DNA of 32,821 bases from Anaerolineae bacterium. Lineage in GTDB: Bacteria; Chloroflexota; Anaerolineae; Aggregatilineales; Aggregatilineaceae. The notes beneath the pieces were generated by a model. That model saw nothing but the letters and a program-made list of their open reading frames with translations, was not told where the DNA came from and did not search any database. The DNA is taken from assembly GCA_023382715.1 (NCBI GenBank), contig JAHDWP010000036.1, positions 1 through 32,821 on the forward strand, given 5' to 3'. Made by a program: the position numbers and the translations under genes. Positions 1,996-24,714 of the stretch are shown here, piece after piece; positions within the stretch are counted from its first letter, which is position 1; the number at the start of each line of letters is the position of its first letter.

Positions 1996-2028
1996 TTGAA
2001 GCACAGTCGCATACACGCAAAAGCGTTG

Positions 2029-2364
2029 ATCTGGAATAGTACACACCGTAGCGGTGTTCAGAGAGCCGCCGGGGGCTGTGAAGGCGGTACAAGCGCCGGT
2101 GTGGAATGGGCCAGGGAGCTGTGCGGTCGAACGCGCTCGCGCGCCACTAGCCCGCACCGGAGACACCACCGTTAACAGGGTGACGGGTATCGAGGCGGCC
2201 CAGAGCAGGCGGGCTGCGTCCGTACCTCAACGAGTGAAGCTGGCTTCTCCTGCATCTCCGCGCATTCACCGGAGATGTTTTTGTTGCTGGAGACAGTCGC
2301 TTAATCAGGGTGGCACCGCGGGAATCTCCTCTTCTCGTCCTTGAGCGAAGGGGGAGATTCTTTT
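2029..2364 (+). promoter_or_regulatory. T-box riboswitch, tryptophan (UGG specifier)
   Basis: The T-box antiterminator core AGGGTGGCACCGCGG is at 2307-2321. Stem I can be traced. A lower helix CTGG/CCAG (2031-2034 with 2111-2114) and an upper helix CACACCG/CGGTGTG (2042-2048 with 2097-2103) enclose the specifier loop. That loop has AGTA on the 5' side (2038-2041) and GAA followed by TGG on the 3' side (2104-2109). TGG at 2107-2109 is the Trp codon. The variable T-box base in TGGCACC is C, which would pair with the G73 discriminator typical of bacterial tRNA-Trp. The distal stem CCGCC/GGCGG (2066-2070 with 2083-2087) carries the expected AG-rich flank. Uncharged tRNA-Trp should stabilise the antiterminator and turn on the trp genes downstream. 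Confidence 0.96.
2322..2364 (+). terminator. T-box-controlled intrinsic terminator
   Basis: GAATCTCC (2322-2329) pairs with GGAGATTC (2353-2360), extended inward by CTTC/GAAG, and is followed by TTTT (2361-2364). The left arm begins inside the conserved T-box, so antiterminator and terminator exclude each other. Confidence 0.92.
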
Positions 2365-2395
2365 CGTTTCTGGCAATCCTGCGGGAGGCGCACTG

Positions 2396-3916
2396 ATGGC
2401 ACTGTCACCGGAACACCTGCGCACGCGCGCGCCGATCATCCCGGATCGGGCGGCGGCTCATCGCCTGTTCGAGCGCGGCGATCTGCTGCCCGTCTACCGT
2501 ACACTGCTGGCCGACCTGGAGACACCCGTCTCGGTCTACCTCAAGCTGGCCGCGCTGGGCACGTCGTCGTTCCTGCTGGAGAGCGTCGAAGGTGGCGAGC
2601 AGGTCGGGCGCTACTCGTTCCTGGGCGTGAATCCCAAGGGCATGATCACCGTGCAGGGCCAGCGGGTGACGATCGCCCGGCACGGCCAGACGACGGTGCG
2701 CGACCTGGCCCCCGGCGAAGACCCACTGCACGTCATCGCCGCTGAGTTCGAGCGCGTCCGCCCGGTGCGGCTGGAAGGGCTGCCGCGCTTCGTCGGCGGG
2801 GCGGTCGGCTATCTCAGCTACGATGTCGTGCGCCATTTCGAGCGGCTGCCGGCCACCGCCAGCGACGACCTGAACGTGCCGGATGTCGCCTTTCTGCTGG
2901 CCGATACGCTGGTCATCTTCGACCACGCCAAACACCAGCTCATCGTCCTGGCCAACGCGCACAACACCGGCGATCCAGACGCGGCCTACGATGATGCTGT
3001 GCGGCGTATTGACCAGATTCTGGACGCGCTGGCTGCCCCGCTGCCCTACCTTGACGAGTGTCCCGCCGCGAGCGAGGACAACCTGCGCTCCAACGTCAGC
3101 CGCGCCCAGTTCGAGGCCAACGTCCGCGCGGCCAAAGAGTACATCGCCGCCGGCGACGCCTTCCAGATCGTGCTCTCGCAGCGTTTCAGCCGCCGGACGT
3201 GCGCGCCGCCGTTCACCATCTACCGGGCGCTGCGCGCGCTCAACCCCTCGCCCTACATGTTCTTTCTGCGCTTCAGCGACGACCTGGCGCTGATCGGCGC
3301 CTCGCCGGAGATGATGGTGCGCCTGGAGGAGGGGATCGCCACCGTGCGGCCCATCGCCGGGACGCGCCCGCGCGGGCGCGACGAAGCCGAGGACAGCGCG
3401 CTGGCCAGTGAGCTGCTGGCCGACGAAAAAGAGCGCGCTGAGCACGTCATGCTGGTGGACCTGGGCCGCAACGACCTGGGCCGCGTCTGCGAATACGGCA
3501 CGGTGCACGTGCCGCACATGATGATCGTCGAGCGCTACTCGCACGTGATGCACATCGTCAGCCAGGTACAGGGGCGGCTGCGCGCCGGGCTGGGCGCCTT
3601 CGACCTGCTGCGGGCCACCTTCCCCGCCGGGACGCTCAGCGGTGCGCCGAAGGTGCGGGCCATGGAGATCATTGAGGAGCTTGAGGGCACACGGCGCGGG
3701 CCGTATGGCGGCGCGGTGGGCTACTTCAGCTTCGACGGCTCAATGGACACCTGCATCACCATCCGCACCATGCTCATGCGCGGCGACGAGGTGACTTTTC
3801 AGGCGGGCGCGGGCATCGTCGCCGACAGCGATCCGGCCCGCGAGTACGAGGAGACGGTCAACAAGGCGCGGGCGGTAGCCGTGGCCGTGCAGAACGCCGA
3901 GCGCGGATTGGGATAG
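2396..3916 (+). CDS. trpE: Anthranilate synthase component I
   Basis: TrpE converts chorismate to anthranilate with ammonia supplied by TrpG, the first committed step of tryptophan synthesis. The 506-residue protein has the N-terminal regulatory domain with LLES at residues 60-63, the family's tryptophan feedback site. The C-terminal chorismate-binding domain carries GDAFQIVLSQRFS, PIAGTRPRGRDEAED, VDLGRNDLGRV, GTLSGAPKVRAMEI (about residue 412) and QAGAGIVADSDP. The ATG has GGGAGG seven bases upstream and lies 31 bases past the T-box terminator. Control is therefore expected at two levels: T-box antitermination of the transcript and product inhibition of the enzyme. PabB is the main alternative, but the operon and the LLES motif argue for TrpE. 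Confidence 0.98.
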   Translation: MALSPEHLRTRAPIIPDRAAAHRLFERGDLLPVYRTLLADLETPVSVYLKLAALGTSSFLLESVEGGEQVGRYSFLGVNPKGMITVQGQRVTIARHGQTTVRDLAPGEDPLHVIAAEFERVRPVRLEGLPRFVGGAVGYLSYDVVRHFERLPATASDDLNVPDVAFLLADTLVIFDHAKHQLIVLANAHNTGDPDAAYDDAVRRIDQILDALAAPLPYLDECPAASEDNLRSNVSRAQFEANVRAAKEYIAAGDAFQIVLSQRFSRRTCAPPFTIYRALRALNPSPYMFFLRFSDDLALIGASPEMMVRLEEGIATVRPIAGTRPRGRDEAEDSALASELLADEKERAEHVMLVDLGRNDLGRVCEYGTVHVPHMMIVERYSHVMHIVSQVQGRLRAGLGAFDLLRATFPAGTLSGAPKVRAMEIIEELEGTRRGPYGGAVGYFSFDGSMDTCITIRTMLMRGDEVTFQAGAGIVADSDPAREYEETVNKARAVAVAVQNAERGLG

Positions 3917-3928
3917 GAGCAGGTGACG

Positions 3929-4495
3929 ATGATCCTGGTCATTGATAACTACGACAGCTTCACCTATAACCTGGTGCAATTGATGGGCGAGCTGGGCGCT
4001 GAGTTGCGCGTGGCCCGCAACGACCAGATCGCGCTCGACGAGATACGCGCGCTGCGCCCATCGCACATCGTCATCTCGCCCGGCCCCGGCACGCCCGACG
4101 ACGGCGGCATCTCGCTCGACGTGATCCGCGCCCTGGGGCCGACCACGCCGATCCTGGGCGTGTGCCTGGGCCAGCAGTGCATCGGCCAGGCGTATGGCGG
4201 GCGCGTCGTGCCCGCCCCGCGCCTGATGCACGGCAAAATCAGCCCCATCTACCACAAGAACGCCGCGCTGTTCACCGGCGTGCCCAGCCCGTTCGAGGCG
4301 ACGCGCTACCACAGCCTGATCGTCGAGGAGCCGCTGCCCGCCGCGCTGCTGGTCACCGCTTTCACCGAGGCCGGCGAGGTGATGGCCCTGCGCCACAGGG
4401 AGCACCCGGTCGTCGGCGTGCAGTTTCACCCGGAAAGTATCCTGACGAAGTACGGCGCGCGTATTGTGCAGAACTTCCTGGAGCACCGCCTGTGA
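3929..4495 (+). CDS. trpG: Anthranilate synthase component II (glutamine amidotransferase)
   Basis: This class I glutamine amidotransferase makes ammonia from glutamine for TrpE. The product is 188 residues. The nucleophile is Cys79 in GVCLGQQ, and the rest of the triad is His167 and Glu169 in VQFHPES. The oxyanion strand SPGPGTPDD is at about 50-58. The ATG at 3929 is preferred because AGGAG (3915-3919) lies nine bases before it. An in-frame GTG at 3923 would be only three bases from that site. The gene starts 12 bases after trpE stops and stays a separate chain, not a TrpEG fusion. Such subunits sometimes also serve PabB; nothing here tests that. Confidence 0.97.
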   Translation: MILVIDNYDSFTYNLVQLMGELGAELRVARNDQIALDEIRALRPSHIVISPGPGTPDDGGISLDVIRALGPTTPILGVCLGQQCIGQAYGGRVVPAPRLMHGKISPIYHKNAALFTGVPSPFEATRYHSLIVEEPLPAALLVTAFTEAGEVMALRHREHPVVGVQFHPESILTKYGARIVQNFLEHRL

Positions 4496-4499
4496 GGGG

Positions 4500-4612
4500 A
4501 TGATCGGTGATCAGCGATCAGCTTCCAGCCTTCGAGATTACTTGTAACCGACAACTGATCACTGACAACTGACAACCGATCACCAACCACCAGCCACCAG
4601 CCACCACGAGGA
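4500..4612. repeat. GATC-rich inverted and tandem repeat between trpG and trpD
   Basis: The gap begins TGATCGGTGATCAGCGATCA. Near its other end it carries CTGATCACTGACAACTGACA followed by ACCGATCACC, roughly the inverse of the first block, then CCACCAGCCACCAGCCACCA. The ends can pair into an imperfect hairpin within the operon transcript. No gene is visible. Confidence 0.7.
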
Positions 4613-4618
4613 GCCACC

Positions 4619-5654
4619 ATGAACCCAGTCATTGACATCCAGCGCGCCCTTGACGTGATCAGCCGCTTCGGGCAGCTTCGCGCCGAGGAGGCCGAAGCGG
4701 TCATGAGCCAGATCATGCGCGGGGAGGCCACCGAAGCGCAGATCGGCGCCTACCTGATGGGCCTGCGCATGAAGGGCGAGACCGAGGCCGAGATTCTGGG
4801 CAGCGCCCGCGCCATGCGCGCCAACGCCATCCGGGTGCCCACGCGCTTTGACGGCGACCTGCTCGATACCTGCGGCACCGGCGGCGATCGGTCGGGCACG
4901 TTCAACATCAGCACGACGGTCGCCTTCGTGGCGGCGGGCGCGGGCGTGCGCATCGCCAAGCACGGCAACCGCGCCAGCACCAGTCGCTGCGGCAGCGCCG
5001 ACGTGCTGGCCGAGCTGGGCGTCAACCTCGACCTGACGCCGCAGCAGGTCGGGCGCTGCGTGGACGAGATCGGCATCGGCTTTTTGTTTGCCCCGAAGCT
5101 GCACCCGGCCATGAAGCACGCCATCGGCCCGCGCCGCGACCTGCACGTGCGCACCATCTTCAATATCCTCGGCCCGCTGACCAACCCGGCAGGCGCGCGC
5201 CGCCAACTGATGGGCGTCTTCGCCCCCGACCTGACCGAGTACCTGGCCAACGTGCTCGGCGAGCTGGGAGCGATCTCGGCCATCGTCGTCTGCGGCTACG
5301 GCAACATTGACGAGCTGACTACGACCGGTCCCAACGTCGTCAGCCATTACGCCGCTGGCGCGGTGCGCACCTTCGAGCTGAATCCGCTGGACTATGACCT
5401 GACGCCCGCCCACATCTGGGAGCTGCTCGGCGGGGACGCGGCGGAGAACGCACGTATCCTGCGCGGCATCCTCAGCGGCCAGGTCAACGCCGCCAAGCGC
5501 GACGTGGTGCTGCTCAACGCGGGCGCGGCGCTGGTGGCAGCAGGGCGCGCGGATGACTTCGCCGAGGGCATCGCCCTGGCCGCTGACGCCATCGCCAGCG
5601 GCGCGGCGCTGGCCAAGCTCGACGCGCTGATCGCCTTCAGTCAGGAGCTGGCGC

Positions 5655-5665
<11 letters not shown>
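4619..5665 (+). CDS. trpD: Anthranilate phosphoribosyltransferase
   Basis: TrpD joins anthranilate to PRPP to give phosphoribosyl-anthranilate. The 348-residue protein is the normal length. The glycine-rich PRPP loop DTCGTGGDRSGTFN starts at residue 83, and KHGNRAST starts at Lys114. The N-terminal helical domain (FGQLRAEEAEAVMSQIMRGE) and GPLTNPA are typical. GAGGAG lies just upstream of the ATG, at the end of the repeat-filled 123-base gap after trpG. This is the only large gap in the operon. Its last codons overlap trpC. Confidence 0.98.
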
Positions 5666-6469
<804 letters not shown>

Positions 6470-6473
<4 letters not shown>

Positions 6474-7143
6474 CCCGCGTCAAGATTTGCGGCGTGACGA
6501 CGCTCGACGACGCCCTGCGCTGCGCGAAAGCCGGCGCTGACCTGCTCGGCCTGAACTTCTACCCGCCCAGCCCGCGCTACCTGCCGCTGGAGCGGGCGCG
6601 CCTGATCGCTGCCGGGCTGCGGAGCATCCTGGGGGCGGCCCGCCCGCTGCTGGTCGGCGTCTTCGTTAATGCGGAGACCGCTGCCATCATTCGCGCTTTC
6701 GAGGAAGTTGGCCTGGATGCGGCGCAGCTCAGCGGCGACGAGCCAGCAGAGACGCTCGCCGCGCTGGACGGGCGCGCTTTCAAGGCGCTGCGCCCCCGCG
6801 ACGACGCCGCCGCGCTGGACACAGCCCGCCTGTTCGCGGCTCACGCGCCCCACGACGAACGCCTGCCCGCCCTGCTGGTGGACGCCTACCATCCGCAGCT
6901 TTACGGCGGCACGGGTGAGACAGCAGGCGAAGACGTGGCACGCGCCGCGTTGAGCGCCGCACCGCGCGTCATGCTCGCCGGCGGCCTGACGCCCGCCAAC
7001 GTGGCCGGGCGGGTGCGCGCGCTGCAACCCTGGGGCGTGGACGTGGCCAGCGGGGTGGAGCGCGCGCCCGGCATTAAGGACGTGGCGCTCGTCCGTGCCT
7101 TCATTGCTGTGGTGAAATCAGTTGATCAAGGAATGGAAAGCTC

Positions 7144-7147
<4 letters not shown>
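6470..7147 (+). CDS. trpF: Phosphoribosylanthranilate isomerase
   Basis: TrpF performs the Amadori rearrangement of phosphoribosyl-anthranilate. The protein is 225 residues. Cys7 in VKICGV and Asp138 in LLVDAY are the expected general base and acid. [22 protein letters not shown] and [13 protein letters not shown] complete the phosphate-binding barrel. It overlaps trpC by ATGA, a sign of coupled translation, and ends overlapping trpB in the same way. A monofunctional TrpF next to TrpC means the two successive barrels are separate chains here. Confidence 0.97.
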
Positions 7148-8369
<1,222 letters not shown>

Positions 8370-8373
<4 letters not shown>

Positions 8374-14841: not shown

Positions 14842-16314
14842 CTACTCAACCTTCTCCACGTCCCATACGCCGGTGCGCAGGAAGTGGTCAATCGAGCGCG
14901 CCGCTTTGCGCCCGTGCCCCATCGCCAGGATGACCGTCGCCGCGCCGATGGCGATGTCGCCGCCAGCGAACACGCCGCGCTTGGAGGTGCGCATCGTCTC
15001 CAGGTTGGTCTTGACCGTGCCGTGCCGCGCGTCCACGTCCAGCCCGGCGGTCGTCTTGGGCACCAGCGGGTTGGGGCCGTTGCCGATGGCGACGACGACC
15101 GTATCCACGTCAATAGTGAACTGCGAGCCTTCGACCGGCACCGGGCGGCGACGCCCGGAGGCGTCTGGCTCGCCCAGCTCCATGCGGATGCACTCCACCT
15201 GGCAGACGCGCCCGCACTCGTCGCCGATGTAGCGCACCGGGTTGTGCAGCAGCTTGAAGACGATGCCCTCTTCCCTGGCGTGGTGAATTTCCTCGATGCG
15301 GGCGGGCATCTCCGCTTCGGAGCGGCGATAGATCAGGTAGACTTCCTTGGCGCCGAGACGAGCCGCCGTGCGCGCCACGTCCATGGCCACGTTGCCGCCG
15401 CCGATCACGGCCACCCGCTCGCTGGCGGCGATGGGCGTGTCACTGTAAGGGAACTCGTAGGCGCGCATCAGGTTGCAGCGCGTCAGGTACTCGTTGGCCG
15501 AATACACGCCGTTGAGGTTCTCGCCGGGCAGGTTCATGAACCAGGGCAGCCCCGCCCCGGTGCCCAGAAAGACCGCGTCGTGGCGCTCCAACAGCTCGTC
15601 CACCGTCTCGATCTGGCCGATGACGTAGTTGTACTCAATCTGCACGCCCATGCGCTGGACGACTTCCACCTCGGCGCTGACGATGGACTTGGGCAGGCGG
15701 AACTCCGGGATGCCGTACATCAGCACGCCGCCGGGGGCGTGCAGCGCCTCGTAGATGGTCACCTCGTGCCCCAGGCGGCGCAGGTCAATGGCCGCGGTCA
15801 GCCCGGCGGGGCCGCTGCCCACCACGCCGACGCTCTTGCCGGTGGGCGCGCCGGTGGGCGGCGGCTCGACCAGGCCGTGCTCGCGCTCCCAGTCGGCGAC
15901 GAAGCGCTCCAGGCGGCCAATGGCCACCGGATCGCCCCGCTTGCCCACGACGCACAGCGCCTCGCACTGCGCTTCCTGCGGGCAGACGCGCCCGCAGATG
16001 GCCGGGAGCATGTTCGTCTCCTTGACTTTGCGCACAGCGCCCTCGAAATCGCCCTGGACGATGAGCGCGACAAAGCCGGGGATGTCAATCCCGACCGGGC
16101 AGCCTTCGACGCAGGCGGGCTTCTTGCAGGCCAGACAGCGGTTCGCCTCCACGATGGCCGTCATAGCGGGCAGCCCGTGAGGGACTTCGCGGAAGTTGGC
16201 ACGGCGCACGTCGGGCGCCTGCTCTGGCATCTGCTGGCGCGGGATCTGCATCCGCTCTTTTGGCTTGAGGGAGCGCAGTCGCTCGATCTCGTGGGGGTCC
16301 AGTTGGTCGCTCAT
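14842..16314 (-). CDS. nfnB: NADH-dependent ferredoxin:NADP+ oxidoreductase, large subunit
   Basis: NfnB pairs with NfnA to reduce two NADP+ with NADH and reduced ferredoxin by flavin-based bifurcation, in the cytoplasm. The 490-residue protein has an N-terminal cluster domain with Cys60, 63, 68, 72 and Cys107, 111, 117, 121. A FAD-binding VGSGPAGL at 165-172 and a second Rossmann site VIGGGNVAMD at 303-312 follow. This is also the architecture of GltD, the glutamate synthase small subunit. The adjacent NfnA gene and the absence of gltB decide for NfnB. The start is ATG 16314 with AAGG eight bases upstream; a GTG at 16320 is possible. It begins 40 bases after nfnA. Confidence 0.92.
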   Translation of the reverse strand: MSDQLDPHEIERLRSLKPKERMQIPRQQMPEQAPDVRRANFREVPHGLPAMTAIVEANRCLACKKPACVEGCPVGIDIPGFVALIVQGDFEGAVRKVKETNMLPAICGRVCPQEAQCEALCVVGKRGDPVAIGRLERFVADWEREHGLVEPPPTGAPTGKSVGVVGSGPAGLTAAIDLRRLGHEVTIYEALHAPGGVLMYGIPEFRLPKSIVSAEVEVVQRMGVQIEYNYVIGQIETVDELLERHDAVFLGTGAGLPWFMNLPGENLNGVYSANEYLTRCNLMRAYEFPYSDTPIAASERVAVIGGGNVAMDVARTAARLGAKEVYLIYRRSEAEMPARIEEIHHAREEGIVFKLLHNPVRYIGDECGRVCQVECIRMELGEPDASGRRRPVPVEGSQFTIDVDTVVVAIGNGPNPLVPKTTAGLDVDARHGTVKTNLETMRTSKRGVFAGGDIAIGAATVILAMGHGRKAARSIDHFLRTGVWDVEKVE

Positions 16315-16354
16315 CCACACTACCTTGTCAGCCCTTTTGCCGACGCTGAGATCA

Positions 16355-17215
16355 TCATGAGGGGGTGGCCTGGGCCAGGGACTCGGCCTGGCAGCGCTCT
16401 TGCATCTGCTGATAGGCGAGCTGTTCCTGTTCCTTGTAGAACGCCTGGCGCTTGATCAGCTCGTCGAAATCCACCAGGTGCCCGTCGAAGTCCGGCCCAT
16501 CCACACAGGCGAACTTCATCTCGCTGCCCACCGTCACCCGGCAGCCGCCGCACATGCCCGTGCCGTCCACCATGATCGGGTTGAGGCTGACCATTGTGGG
16601 AATGCCGTGCTCTTTGGTCAGCAGGCTGACGTACTTCATCATCGGCACCGGGCCGACGGCGAAGACGAAATCGGGCTTGCCGCGCTGAGCGATGAGATCG
16701 GCCAGGGCGTGGGTGACGAATCCCTGCAGGCCGCAGGTGCCGTCGTCGGTGCATACGATCACCTCGTCCGAGGCGCGGCGCATCTCCTCTTCCATGATCA
16801 GCAGCGCTTGAGTGCGCGCGCCGAGGATGGAGATCACCGTGTTGCCCGCCGCCTTGAGCGCCTGGGCGATAGGGTGCGCCGGGGCGATGCCGATCCCGCC
16901 GCCGATGACCACCGCAGTGCCCCGCCGTTCAATATGCGTGGGCGCGCCAAGAGGGCCGACCACGTCGCGCAGGCTGTCGCCGGGCTTCAGCGTCGCCATC
17001 TGCGCCGTGCTCTTGCCCACCGCCTGGACGACGAGAGTGATCGTGCCGCGCGCGGGGTCGGCGTCGGCGATGGTCAGCGGGATGCGCTCGCCGTGCTCGT
17101 CAACGCGCACGATCACGAACTGCCCGGCCTTGCGTCGCTGCGCGATCTTGGGGGCAGCGATCACATAGCGATTGACGCTCTCGGCGATCACCGTGTTTTC
17201 CAGTATCTCATTCAC
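16355..17215 (-). CDS. nfnA: NADH-dependent ferredoxin:NADP+ oxidoreductase, small subunit
   Basis: NfnA is the FAD and [2Fe-2S] subunit that accepts NADH electrons. It is 286 residues. The flavin domain (AGQFVIVRVDEHGERIPLTI) is at about 30-49, and the nucleotide-binding VVIGGGIGIAPAHP at 102-115. The cluster ligands are Asp217 with Cys222, Cys225 and Cys237 (VDGTGMCGGCR ... ACVDGPDFDG); an aspartate ligand is characteristic of this subunit. The family is also annotated as sulfide dehydrogenase subunit beta. The start is a GTG with GGAG eight bases upstream. The 195-base gap to the tRNA terminator is relatively AT-rich and probably holds the promoter, though I cannot name its boxes with confidence. 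Confidence 0.93.
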   Translation of the reverse strand: MNEILENTVIAESVNRYVIAAPKIAQRRKAGQFVIVRVDEHGERIPLTIADADPARGTITLVVQAVGKSTAQMATLKPGDSLRDVVGPLGAPTHIERRGTAVVIGGGIGIAPAHPIAQALKAAGNTVISILGARTQALLIMEEEMRRASDEVIVCTDDGTCGLQGFVTHALADLIAQRGKPDFVFAVGPVPMMKYVSLLTKEHGIPTMVSLNPIMVDGTGMCGGCRVTVGSEMKFACVDGPDFDGHLVDFDELIKRQAFYKEQEQLAYQQMQERCQAESLAQATPS

Positions 17216-18212: not shown

Positions 18213-19868
18213 CTACGTCCCCGGCGCGCGCAGCGCGGCCAGCCGCTCCTCCTCGCTGAGCGGGTTCCCGGCGCGATCTACGGCCCACACGGCCCCCTCC
18301 ACGCTGCGCGTGCGGACGCGCCCCGGCGCGTAGGGGGAGTTGACCAGTTGCGGTGCGTCGAGCAGGCCCTCGGCCACCGCTCGCGCGAGCACGTCCGGGT
18401 TCAGCAGCGGGTCGTCGTCGCCGCTTCCCAGCGCGCGAATGGCTTCCACCAGCCGGTCGGTCTCGGCGATCAGCTCGTCGCGCCGGCGCAGCACCGCCGG
18501 GTCGCGGGTCATGTCGGGGTTGCCGCGCAGGGCCGTCTCGATCACGTCCTGGGCCATCACCGCGCTCTCGATCACTTCCTCGGCGCTGGCCGCGTGATCG
18601 GCCTCGCTGTAGCCCACCACGTGGACGATGTGCGGGCGCAGGGCCATCTGTAGCATGACGCTCTGCGCCAGGTGCGCGCGCGCCCGGCGCAAGTCCACCG
18701 GATAGCTGAGCAGGCCAGTGCGCGTCTGCCGCCAGATGTGGAAGTCGTCCGCCGCGAAACGCTCGCTGAGCGCAGCAATCGCCAGGGCGCGGGCCAGGTC
18801 CATGGCGTTGGAAAGCTGCGGCGGGCTTTGGAACATATAGGTCAGGATGTAGTCGCGCACGCCGCAGTGCCGGGCGTTGTAGGCGTAGAGATAGGCCGAG
18901 GCGCACACCACCGCGTCCGGCGCGTCGCGCATCCCCCAGTGATAGGACTCGTTGCCTTCCACAGGAATGCCGCGCGCGCCGTGCCAGGCCATCAGCGCCT
19001 GGTGCTCGGCGATGGACTGCGCCAGCGGCGATGGCCCACGCCCGTCCATCGCGTTGAACCAGAACAGCGACGTGGCGCACCAGGCGTTGTCAAGGGTGCG
19101 CACGAGCAGATCGGCGTAGCGCAGGTGATCGGCGGTGCCGGAGTACGAGCGCAGCAGCGGGTAGTTTCCCCGGCGGCTGGCCGCGTAGAGGCGGCGCAGA
19201 TCGTCTTCCGTGCGGAAAGGCACGCCGCCCGCGCCCCTGCTGCGCAAGTCCTGGCGGCTGGGGTGAAAGAAGTGCTCCTGCGCGTCCTGGTCGGCGCCCA
19301 GCGAGATCACGTCCAGCGCGCTCGACTCGGCGATCTGGGCGATGCCCTCGACGGTCGGCTCGATGGTCGGCGCGGGGATGCCGAAATGGTGGCGCAGGAT
19401 CGGGTAGGGCGCTTTCCAGCGGATGCGCTCGATGGCCCGCTGAGGGAAAGTGTCCGGGTCGCGCTGTTCGACAGACTTGCCCTCCAGCGCCAGCCGAATC
19501 TGGTGCGGCGACTCCTCGCCGGAGAAGATCGCGTCGAAGCAGCCCATCTCGCGGGCGATGGCCGCGACGGGCGGCGTCCCGCCGAAGAAGAGGCGCTTGC
19601 GGCCCAGCACGCCCGCCGCTTCCAGCATGGCGCGCAGCTCGGCCAGCAGCGTGCGCGCATTGTCGGGCGTCAGCCGGTAGCTGACGCCGATCACGTCCGG
19701 GTCGTAGGCGATGATGGCATCCATGAAGGCTTCCAGCCCCGTCGCCGGGCCGGTGAAGTGCGTCTCGTAGCCTGCTTCTGCGGCGGCAGCCAGGAAGCGC
19801 GTGACCCCGGCCACGTGCACGCAGTCGCCCAGGCTGCCCGCCAGCACTTTGCCCGTTTTGTCGTGCAT
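18213..19868 (-). CDS. Single-chain glutamate-mutase-like cobalamin enzyme
   Basis: The 551-residue protein fuses two parts that are separate subunits in glutamate mutase. Residues about 5-130 are a MutS-like B12 domain: GDCVHVAG (Asp15, His18, Gly21), SYRL (63-66) and FFGGT (94-98). The canonical forms are DxHxxG and SxL; here both are one residue longer. Residues about 150-550 resemble MutE: NYPLLRSYSGTAD with Arg240, PPQLSNAMDLARAL at 349-362, and a tail RALGSGDDDPLLNPDVL...DRAGNPLSEEE. The barrel is shorter than MutE. By my remembered alignment only one of three substrate arginines of glutamate mutase is kept, so the substrate is probably different. AGGAGG lies six bases before the ATG. 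The opine-dehydrogenase-like gene is upstream on the same strand. Carbon-skeleton or amino mutase is inferred. Confidence 0.68.
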   Translation of the reverse strand: MHDKTGKVLAGSLGDCVHVAGVTRFLAAAAEAGYETHFTGPATGLEAFMDAIIAYDPDVIGVSYRLTPDNARTLLAELRAMLEAAGVLGRKRLFFGGTPPVAAIAREMGCFDAIFSGEESPHQIRLALEGKSVEQRDPDTFPQRAIERIRWKAPYPILRHHFGIPAPTIEPTVEGIAQIAESSALDVISLGADQDAQEHFFHPSRQDLRSRGAGGVPFRTEDDLRRLYAASRRGNYPLLRSYSGTADHLRYADLLVRTLDNAWCATSLFWFNAMDGRGPSPLAQSIAEHQALMAWHGARGIPVEGNESYHWGMRDAPDAVVCASAYLYAYNARHCGVRDYILTYMFQSPPQLSNAMDLARALAIAALSERFAADDFHIWRQTRTGLLSYPVDLRRARAHLAQSVMLQMALRPHIVHVVGYSEADHAASAEEVIESAVMAQDVIETALRGNPDMTRDPAVLRRRDELIAETDRLVEAIRALGSGDDDPLLNPDVLARAVAEGLLDAPQLVNSPYAPGRVRTRSVEGAVWAVDRAGNPLSEEERLAALRAPGT

Positions 19869-19957
19869 ACGTCCCTCCTGTTCTGTGATGATGTGCTACG
19901 GCAATCGAACGGTGTGGGGAGTGAACACTCCTGAGGGGGCCTGTTCAGGACGTGTAT

Positions 19958-20072
19958 GGAAACCCCCTCACCCCTGCACCCCTCTCCCTCAACGGGGCGA
20001 GGGGAAACCCTGTGCCTTGCTCCCCTTCTCCCCCCGAAGGGAGAAGGGGTCGGGAGATGAGGGAGCAAGAAC
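19958..20072. repeat. C-tract/G-tract repeat within the mutase/dehydrogenase gap
   Basis: CCCCCTCACCCCTGCACCCC begins the element. CTCTCCCTCAACGGGGCGAG and CTTCTCCCCCCGAAGGGAGA follow, each a hairpin with complementary C and G tracts. It fills most of the 222-base gap between the two minus-strand genes and may lower expression of the second, or separate them. Confidence 0.75.
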
Positions 20073-20090
20073 GGTCTACCAAACACACTC

Positions 20091-21233
20091 TCAGGGTCGC
20101 CCGTAGGGATCGCTGGGGGACGGCTCCGGGTCGGGGCTGCCCGTCTCGACCAGCCGCGTGATCTCGCGCAATGACAGCCCGACCAGCCCCATGCGCTCCA
20201 GCGTGCGCCCGCGATGGCGATAATCCACGCCGTCAATGACGCAGGCGATCTGGATCATGGACTCCATGCCCCACACGTCCACCCCGAAGCGTTTGCCCAG
20301 CTCGGAGATCGGCACCAGGCTGTAGGGCACGTCTTCGAAGATGTAGCGGTGGCGCAGCGTGCGCGGCGCGGTGATGCCGCGGTAGCCGGGGTTGGCGTGG
20401 ATGGCCTGGTGCAGGTTGTTGCCATAGGCCGAATAGGCCCGCGCCAGCCAGTCCCGCGCGGACTGGGCGCGGATGCCCAGGGCGGTGGCCACCGTCACCC
20501 GCTCGCGGTCCAGCCGTTCCAGAAGCTGGGCGGTGGAAGGCGTGACGCCATCAATGTAGAACTCGAACTGCCCGCCAGTGGCCTCGATCCACCCGGCGTT
20601 GAGCAGGGTGAGGGCCGGGTGAAATACCGCACCCATATTGTTCAGGCTGGTATAGAGCACATTCGGTGCGATGATGAACTGCGGGTAGACCTCCTGCAAC
20701 ACATCGAGCACTTCGCTGGTGCGCGCAGAGGGCAGCGCCGCCAGGGGGACGGTGTTCTTGCGGCGGAAGATCTGCGCCTGGGCCGGGCCGTTGCTGCGGC
20801 TGGCAAAGAGGAAGGTCTCCGTCTCGGCGATGATCACGTCGGCGGTGCAGTTGTTCTCGCGCAGCACGCTGCGGAACTCCAGCGCCCCGCCGGTGCGCCC
20901 AGGATTGAGGACGACGATCTGCCCATCGCGCAGGTGCGGCGCGCAGGCCAGGGCAATGTCGCGGTGAGCCGACGCCGGGACGACGATCATGACCAGCTTG
21001 GCATCGGCCAGGGCGAAAGCCATGTCGCTGGTCACGTAAGGAATCGGGCCGAATACCTGCTGCCCATCTTCCAGCGTGACCTCGATGCCGCCGCGTGCGG
21101 CGATGTCTTCAATATGCTCGTAGCTGCGATTGTAGAGGCGGACGGTGTAGCCGCGCACGGCCATTTCGGCAGCCATCGCTTTGCCGCCGTGCCCGGCCCC
21201 AATCACTGCGATCTGAAGCTCGTAGTCAAGCAT
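20091..21233 (-). CDS. NAD(P)-dependent opine dehydrogenase family protein
   Basis: The 380-residue protein has an N-terminal Rossmann domain (VIGAGHGGKAMAAEM, residues 10-24; NPGRTGGALEF) and the helical octopine/nopaline dehydrogenase domain. NNMGAVFHPALTLLNAG carries the family's conserved histidine. Known relatives reduce the imine of an amino acid and a keto acid, or run the reverse, and some act on other 2-oxo acids; the substrate here cannot be read. The ATG at 21233 has AAGGAG six to seven bases upstream. It is transcribed first, with the cobalamin protein gene 222 bases downstream on the same strand. The two may be consecutive steps of one amino-acid pathway, which is inference. Confidence 0.85.
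   Translation of the reverse strand: MLDYELQIAVIGAGHGGKAMAAEMAVRGYTVRLYNRSYEHIEDIAARGGIEVTLEDGQQVFGPIPYVTSDMAFALADAKLVMIVVPASAHRDIALACAPHLRDGQIVVLNPGRTGGALEFRSVLRENNCTADVIIAETETFLFASRSNGPAQAQIFRRKNTVPLAALPSARTSEVLDVLQEVYPQFIIAPNVLYTSLNNMGAVFHPALTLLNAGWIEATGGQFEFYIDGVTPSTAQLLERLDRERVTVATALGIRAQSARDWLARAYSAYGNNLHQAIHANPGYRGITAPRTLRHRYIFEDVPYSLVPISELGKRFGVDVWGMESMIQIACVIDGVDYRHRGRTLERMGLVGLSLREITRLVETGSPDPEPSPSDPYGRP

Positions 21234-21708: not shown

Positions 21709-24714
<3,006 letters not shown>

Follow-up and report, generated by a model that had tools for sequence, protein, structure and literature searches.

A cobalamin (B12)-binding protein encoded beside an opine-dehydrogenase-family protein was put in print twice in 2009, and the same gene pair lies in the 32,821-nucleotide contig of an Anaerolineae bacterium (JAHDWP010000036.1; phylum Chloroflexota) that we analyzed here and refer to, in its full length, as the window. 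In the openly available text of the first of these papers, Zhang et al. predicted a B12 family in 11 bacteria, Chloroflexi among the hosts, that always adjoined a pfam02317 gene, with a D-Ala-D-Ala ligase and an asparagine synthase near the family in several genomes (PMC2667541); the section on the family draws no relation to glutamate mutase, and the main text names neither a function nor GlmL or MutL. The accessible sections of the second, the genome paper of Halothermothrix orenii, describe an octopine dehydrogenase and a B12-binding protein as a putative operon whose role is stated to be unknown, and report the two-family operon in hot anaerobes including Roseiflexus (PMC2626281). Both, in the same parts, compared the B12 protein with methionine-synthase-type domains. 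An earlier note on this DNA, made from the sequence alone, had taken the combination to be undescribed, a claim that these two papers contradict. In the available text of a third paper, an octopine dehydrogenase that may be the one discussed here is raised in an ethanol-tolerant Thermoanaerobacter strain (PMC3751872). Our literature search returned no substrate, direction, activity or functional study of the pair; subscription journals lay mostly outside that search, and one may exist there.

To our knowledge, the B12-dependent carbon-skeleton mutases that use neither coenzyme A (CoA) nor pyridoxal phosphate (PLP) are very few, namely glutamate mutase and methyleneglutarate mutase. With the former (GlmE/GlmS), the B12 protein of the window shares a barrel fold, a B12 domain, a counterpart of GlmE Glu330 and, at some related loci, a GlmL-type neighbor. 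Unlike glutamate mutase, it has its B12 domain at the start of one continuous chain, is ~15% identical to GlmE, carries Cys for the Asp of the DxHxxG motif, and has the substrate arginines and Lys326 replaced. Its partner, in turn, has PF02317, a Rossmann N-terminus and a His and Asp dyad in common with the N-(1-carboxyethyl)norvaline and octopine dehydrogenases (1bg6 and 3c7a), and differs from these in belonging to a family whose genes accompany that of a B12 mutase in 76 of 80 loci. Judged by description and by the accessible text of the 2009 papers, the family of Zhang et al. has the N-terminal B12-binding domain (15 of 15 members of our alignment A1) and the adjacent pfam02317 gene in common with the present one, and the H. 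orenii operon has the same two families adjacent, Roseiflexus being represented in our set by three loci (L099, L103 and L113). The relation to glutamate mutase and the link to GlmL go beyond the account of Zhang et al.; relative to what both papers make available, the resemblance of the predicted fold to GlmE, the association with GlmL, the Cys in the cobalamin motif, the map of the pocket, a MutL-fused variant and the larger number of loci appear to be new. We think it fairly probable that the two proteins constitute a two-enzyme pathway segment, made up of an adenosylcobalamin carbon-skeleton mutase and an opine-type dehydrogenase.

Conserved pairing of the two genes

Both open reading frames (ORFs) are present where the earlier note had placed them, on the minus strand. 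The opine dehydrogenase (ODH) gene (positions 20091-21233; 380 amino acids) is transcribed first and is followed, after a gap of 222 nucleotides, by the mutase gene (18213-19868; 551 amino acids), whose ATG at 19868 is preceded by AGGAGG, a sequence resembling a ribosome-binding site. The mutase family is not a chance product, because tblastn finds relatives of it at 430 places in the genome collection (E of 1e-3 or better); no relative was found in a scan of viral contigs or by tblastn against plasmids. Counts out of 80 given throughout rest on the best 80 of these 430 relatives, named L062 to L141, of which L062 (Thermoflexus sp.) is the closest to the window protein (92% identical).

In 76 of the 80 loci the mutase gene has an ODH gene near it, invariably of the same orientation, and either of the two may come first (ODH in 33, mutase in 43). 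No gene separates the two in 69 loci, and intervening genes are found in seven (L070, L072, L086, L090, L093, L095 and L119), in L086 and L090 a second ODH gene. Only two changes of order are needed on the tree, which indicates that the linkage survived rearrangement. For the loci that have no local ODH (L077, L079, L082 and L108) a profile search was negative too; L077 and L108 end at a contig edge on the side expected to hold the ODH, and the genomes of L077, L079 and L108 encode one elsewhere.

Consistent with this linkage, the distances among mutases and among ODHs are correlated (r of 0.78 over 76 rows, one of them the window; the highest value among 2000 permutations was 0.18). Left out of this comparison were L141, whose ODH is cut by a contig end, and the second ODH copies of L085, L086, L088 and L090; alignment A2 leaves out L154 and L176. 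In a draw of 301 Chloroflexota genomes, 16 encode the mutase. ODHs scoring at least 460 bits occur in all 15 genomes with a non-fused mutase, at most 250 nucleotides from it, and in none of the other 286, where the best score is 244 bits. The draw and the 80 loci overlap (G283 is L092 and G216 is L098, for example), and the two counts therefore cannot be taken as independent. The conserved, same-strand pairing, on which the earlier note had made its proposal depend beforehand, is strongly confirmed.

Fold and conserved residues

The ODH matches PF02317 at 165 bits, with Rossmann-type families matching from residue 7 to ~108 (Pfam), and its nearest relative of solved structure is 1bg6 (275 bits). 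Opine dehydrogenases have a catalytic His-Asp dyad, as in 1bg6 and octopine dehydrogenase. His205 and Asp301 of the window protein align with the His and Asp positions of 1bg6; His205 is present in 77 of 77 rows, and the position of Asp301 holds Asp in 69 rows and Glu in seven, with a gap in one.

At the N-terminus of the mutase, Pfam places a B12-binding domain (PF02310, 43.6 bits, residues 6-118), and further on a match to MutE (PF06368, residues 291-540) of 25.8 bits, just under the cut-off of 26.6. Among the 15 sequences of alignment A1, from which the partial protein of G011 was left out, PF02310 reaches an E-value of 0.001 in all 15 and PF06368 in only three, so that the assignment of the barrel rests on the fold. 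The mutase does not come close to the cut-off of any NCBIfam model and therefore has no curated name there. The AlphaFold2 model built on A1 (predicted local distance difference test, 81.7; predicted template-modeling score, 0.74) consists of the B12 domain and a GlmE-like barrel (~residues 137-547). Its best match by VIA-align is GlmE (6h9e_B/1cb7_B, Z of 31.4, root-mean-square deviation of 3.3-3.4 Å over 376-377 residues), and Foldseek likewise ranks 1cb7_B, the epsilon chain of glutamate mutase, best (E of 1.7e-14). The profile of the mutase also matches that of Chloroflexota MutE (E of 2e-9, or 1.7e-11 with 81 rows). Thus the families named in the earlier note (B12-binding, MutE-like and opine dehydrogenase), as well as its fusion of MutS-like and MutE-like parts in one chain, are borne out by Pfam and the predicted fold, and the fold prediction that it had proposed as a check yielded both the B12 domain and the barrel.

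These comparisons bear on a reading that takes the B12 protein for a corrinoid methyltransferase or a non-catalytic sensor and not for a mutase at all. Such a reading would accord with the likening to methionine-synthase-type domains in the available text of the 2009 papers, and the B12 domain alone scores about equally against corrinoid methyltransfer proteins and mutases (Z of 15.1 to 2yxb for residues 3-131, with 4jgi and 1y80 also at ~15). The barrel, however, scores a Z of 31.4 to GlmE against 14.7-15.3 to the barrels of MetH, and the GlmL neighbors described below, together with an invariant counterpart of Glu330, likewise argue against this reading, which we regard as very unlikely.

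Residues were counted in an alignment of the window protein and its 80 named relatives (81 rows). The cobalamin motif region (residues 13-28; positions 19785-19832, minus strand) contains LGDCVHVAG, that is CxHxxG, in which His18, the expected cobalt ligand, and Gly21 are invariant (81 of 81); Ser63 and Leu66 are also kept in every row. The Asp of DxHxxG is replaced by Cys16 in 80 of 81 rows, L075 alone having Asp. This replacement is notable because methionine synthase, according to the available text of one study, loses most of its activity when the Asp or the His of the motif is replaced (PMC6013808). In the barrel, Glu422 (codon at 18603-18605, minus strand) is invariant and aligns with GlmE Glu330, a residue suggested, in the accessible text, to bind the ribose hydroxyls of the adenosine (PMC3958899). 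Positions of GlmE were mapped by aligning the profile of the 81 rows with that of a MutE alignment, which gave the same mapping in three modes, and GlmE numbering was fixed by the Chloroflexota MutE L153 (residue n of which is GlmE n+41 over the part used). As we read these alignments, the adenosyl-radical machinery would be kept and the substrate pocket changed.

The next best folds after GlmE are lysine 5,6-aminomutase (Z of 27.2) and ornithine 4,5-aminomutase (24.3), followed by methylmalonyl-CoA mutase (19.6). They raise the possibility of an aminomutase-like enzyme that works without PLP, or holds it otherwise, in parallel with ornithine degradation, where a racemase, a B12 aminomutase, a GlmL-related protein and a NAD-dependent dehydrogenase acting on the shifted amine would have their counterparts. 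Ornithine degradation does place a B12 mutase beside a NAD(P) amine dehydrogenase, and in L086 GlmL is accompanied by a gene resembling ornithine racemase (348 bits against a cut-off of 480). Set against this, aminomutases hold PLP by a lysine, which the available text of one study gives as Lys144, in the Rossmann domain, in lysine 5,6-aminomutase and Lys629 in ornithine 4,5-aminomutase (PMC3958899). In the present family (counting its own columns alone), Lys does not reach half of the 81 rows at any column from residue 7 to 151; the only Lys present in 79 of 81 rows is Lys152, beyond the B12 domain, which would speak against a PLP site of the aminomutase kind. We consider an aminomutase quite unlikely.

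Genes beside the pair

The earlier note had asked which third gene recurs. Several do, each in a subset of the 80 loci: MutL/GlmL (nine), AsnB-like (10), DUF5698 (10) and ATP-grasp (four), genes outside the Pfam runs being assigned by BLAST clustering. The MutL-family genes (L082, L085, L086, L088, L090, L093, L119, L127 and L134) match the GlmL equivalog model of NCBIfam at 574-607 bits in all eight tested, that is all but L085 (cut-off 475), and provide the best evidence for cofactor chemistry of the glutamate-mutase type. In genome G184, an ODH gene is followed directly by a gene for a 1264-amino-acid protein in which B12 domain, barrel and MutL are joined, and then by Dpp-type importer genes (L031:3022-8027); this protein is likely a mutase joined to its own reactivator. 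We gave no weight to the general co-occurrence of MutL with the mutase (found in 15 of 16 genomes that have the mutase and in 78 of the 285 that do not) because it follows class membership and because most of the matches are far weaker than the GlmL neighbors. The genome of the window encodes an adenosyltransferase of the PduO type (204 bits); one of the CobA type was looked for there and not found.

Ligase genes form a second group of neighbors. AsnB-like genes occur within 3 kb at eight of their 10 loci, and in L070 and L072 they separate the ODH gene from the mutase gene; in the phylum draw they are also near the pair in L019, L027, L028 and L029. The named loci encode 11 AsnB-like proteins, of which three (L095:4476-5846, L110:12878-14239 and L137:12725-14119) have Ser in place of the glutaminase Cys2, and these would perhaps be amide ligases that use an amine other than ammonia. 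Ring closure in the manner of beta-lactam synthetase, considered for these Ser2 copies, was dropped for lack of further support. The four genes for a D-Ala-D-Ala-ligase-like ATP-grasp protein lie at most 20 nucleotides from the ODH or the mutase gene (Pfam was run on L119 and L136 only), and L119 has both this gene and GlmL. DUF5698 genes are as frequent as AsnB and lie within 3 kb at seven of their loci.

L085, L086, L088 and L090 each have two tandem ODH genes with one mutase gene, possibly encoding a two-chain dehydrogenase, as well as Dpp-type ATP-binding cassette genes and a gene resembling the receptor of cyclic di-AMP (by Pfam in L090, by clustering in the others); all four branch from a single fork that the tree does not resolve. 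Regulator genes upstream are of the GntR/UTRA (L127 and L134), RpiR (L031) and LacI (L136) types. Neighbors of the DUF72, YkuD, UbiA, fasciclin and TPR families look incidental.

Such neighbors could be explained if the product of the pair were protective, namely an opine that is amidated or ligated and serves as osmolyte or thermolyte, which would account for ligases, ion-balance genes and a range of hot anaerobic hosts. The AsnB-like genes, including those between ODH and mutase, the closely placed ATP-grasp genes, the cyclic di-AMP-receptor-like genes, Na+/H+ or Na/Ca exchangers near L026, L109 and L132, and the hot anaerobes of the accessible H. orenii text (PMC2626281) all speak for this idea. 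Yet every neighbor type is confined to a minority of loci, the four cyclic di-AMP loci share a single fork, other loci have importers and catabolic-type regulators, and the host range is not only hot, since deep-lake and groundwater samples are among the relatives. We therefore hold a protective product to be unlikely.

At the window itself, the pair is flanked by a MaoC-like gene on one side and, on the other, by an ORF (21709-24714) that we read by eye as glycyl-tRNA synthetase; neighbors of the importer and regulator type or of the ligase type are absent. A scan for promoters and terminators returned no promoter-like site (0.3 expected) and two terminator-like sites (1.1 expected), and an Rfam scan of the window and seven relatives (L017-L023) returned no cobalamin riboswitch at the gathering score. 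The stretch between the two genes (19905-20085, minus strand), outside both enzymes, holds one copy of a dispersed element of ~115 bp that is GC-rich and hairpin-bearing and has 59 matches in its own genome including this copy, several of them clustered and several at contig ends. It resembles a repetitive extragenic palindromic or miniature inverted-repeat transposable element; in L062 the gap between the two genes is much shorter and the element largely absent.

Three further observations concern other genes. At 2017-8373 of the window, a T-box leader (RF00230, 95.4 bits) stands ahead of genes of the tryptophan-synthesis type, matching anthranilate synthase, glutamine amidotransferase, glycosyl transferase 3, PRAI and PALP, and probably represents T-box control of trp in Chloroflexota. 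At 14842-17215 (minus strand), a FAD/NAD-binding subunit is encoded beside a GltA-type flavoprotein (NF004862 and TIGR01316, both above cut-off), a pair that, from its NCBIfam matches, we read as a sulfide dehydrogenase or an NfnAB-like pair. Finally, three MutE paralogues of genomes G089 and G137 (L155, L174 and L175) have a residue other than Arg at the position of GlmE Arg149 and are further putative Chloroflexota B12 mutases.

Proposed chemistry

Most likely, the predicted mutase uses adenosylcobalamin to act on an amino-dicarboxylate that is not glutamate, and belongs to one pathway with the opine C-N chemistry of its partner. In particular, the 551-amino-acid protein would bind adenosylcobalamin through His18 of CxHxxG, and homolysis of the Co-C bond would yield the 5'-deoxyadenosyl radical. 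Within the GlmE-like barrel, this radical chemistry would rearrange the carbon skeleton of a small molecule resembling an amino-dicarboxylate, independently of CoA and PLP; that molecule is probably not glutamate bound in the manner of glutamate mutase. The 380-amino-acid ODH would use NAD(P)(H) to make or cleave a C-N bond between an amino acid and a 2-oxo acid, and the amino acid so joined or released would be the substrate or the product of the mutase. In some lineages a GlmL-type protein would reactivate the mutase, with Dpp-type importer genes or catabolic-type regulators beside the genes, and in some the operon includes a gene for an ATP-grasp or asparagine-synthase-like ligase. The domains, the predicted fold, the residue conservation and the linkage are shown directly; we infer the cofactor, the type of reaction, the joint pathway and its direction.

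Several observations weigh against this proposal. Arg66, Arg100 and Arg149 of GlmE form the clamp that holds the substrate (a role for which we looked for an open-text source and found none); in the profile alignment they correspond to His161, Gln197 and Tyr242, each invariant in the 81 rows, and GlmE Lys326 corresponds to Val418; the pocket therefore differs from the one in glutamate mutase. Two invariant arginines, Arg159 and Arg240, sit two residues ahead of the His161 and Tyr242 positions. The Cys in the cobalamin motif may mean that the cofactor chemistry is altered or that a mutase is the wrong reading. A MutL-family neighbor is limited to nine of the 80 loci; the window locus has no GlmL beside the pair, and the only MutL match of its genome is a 174-bit protein on another contig, of a kind found in 93 of the 301 phylum genomes. 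The genome of L082 has no ODH at an E-value of 1e-30, and the loci examined are the best 80 of the 430 relatives. Moreover, the loci with importers and regulators suggest breakdown and those with ligases suggest synthesis, L119 mixing the two.

The same residues bear on whether the protein is a true glutamate mutase fused in one chain, converting L-glutamate to 3-methylaspartate and feeding or draining 3-methylaspartate for opine formation. GlmE is the best fold match, matches to the GlmL model lie near the mutase in all eight loci tested of the nine with a MutL-family neighbor, and a D-glutamate-cyclase-like gene (L095) and the gamma-glutamyltranspeptidase gene of L086 hint at glutamate chemistry. 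However, in this family other residues stand in place of Lys326 and of the three arginines that hold the substrate, identity to GlmE is ~15%, and the MutE proteins above the Pfam cut-off form a separate set, found in four of the 301 Chloroflexota genomes. Because of the lost arginines and the Cys in the motif, we do not file the protein as a glutamate mutase and find that assignment rather improbable.

A variant in which the mutase would act on the opine itself is also unlikely. Here a secondary-amine dicarboxylate or its N-carboxyalkyl arm would be rearranged, with a Cys-His arrangement in place of Asp-His on the cobalt; this opine would be supplied or consumed by the ODH, and the metabolite would be completed, in certain lineages, by AsnB-like or ATP-grasp ligases. 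We know of no described adenosylcobalamin enzyme that rearranges an opine.

Returning to a mutase for an amino-dicarboxylate other than glutamate, the occurrence of relatives at 430 places, the fixed dehydrogenase partner, the GlmL found at some loci and the altered pocket point to an unassigned B12 reaction. The pair has been in print since 2009, and the predicted GlmE fold, the link to GlmL and the map of residues with their conservation make its function testable.

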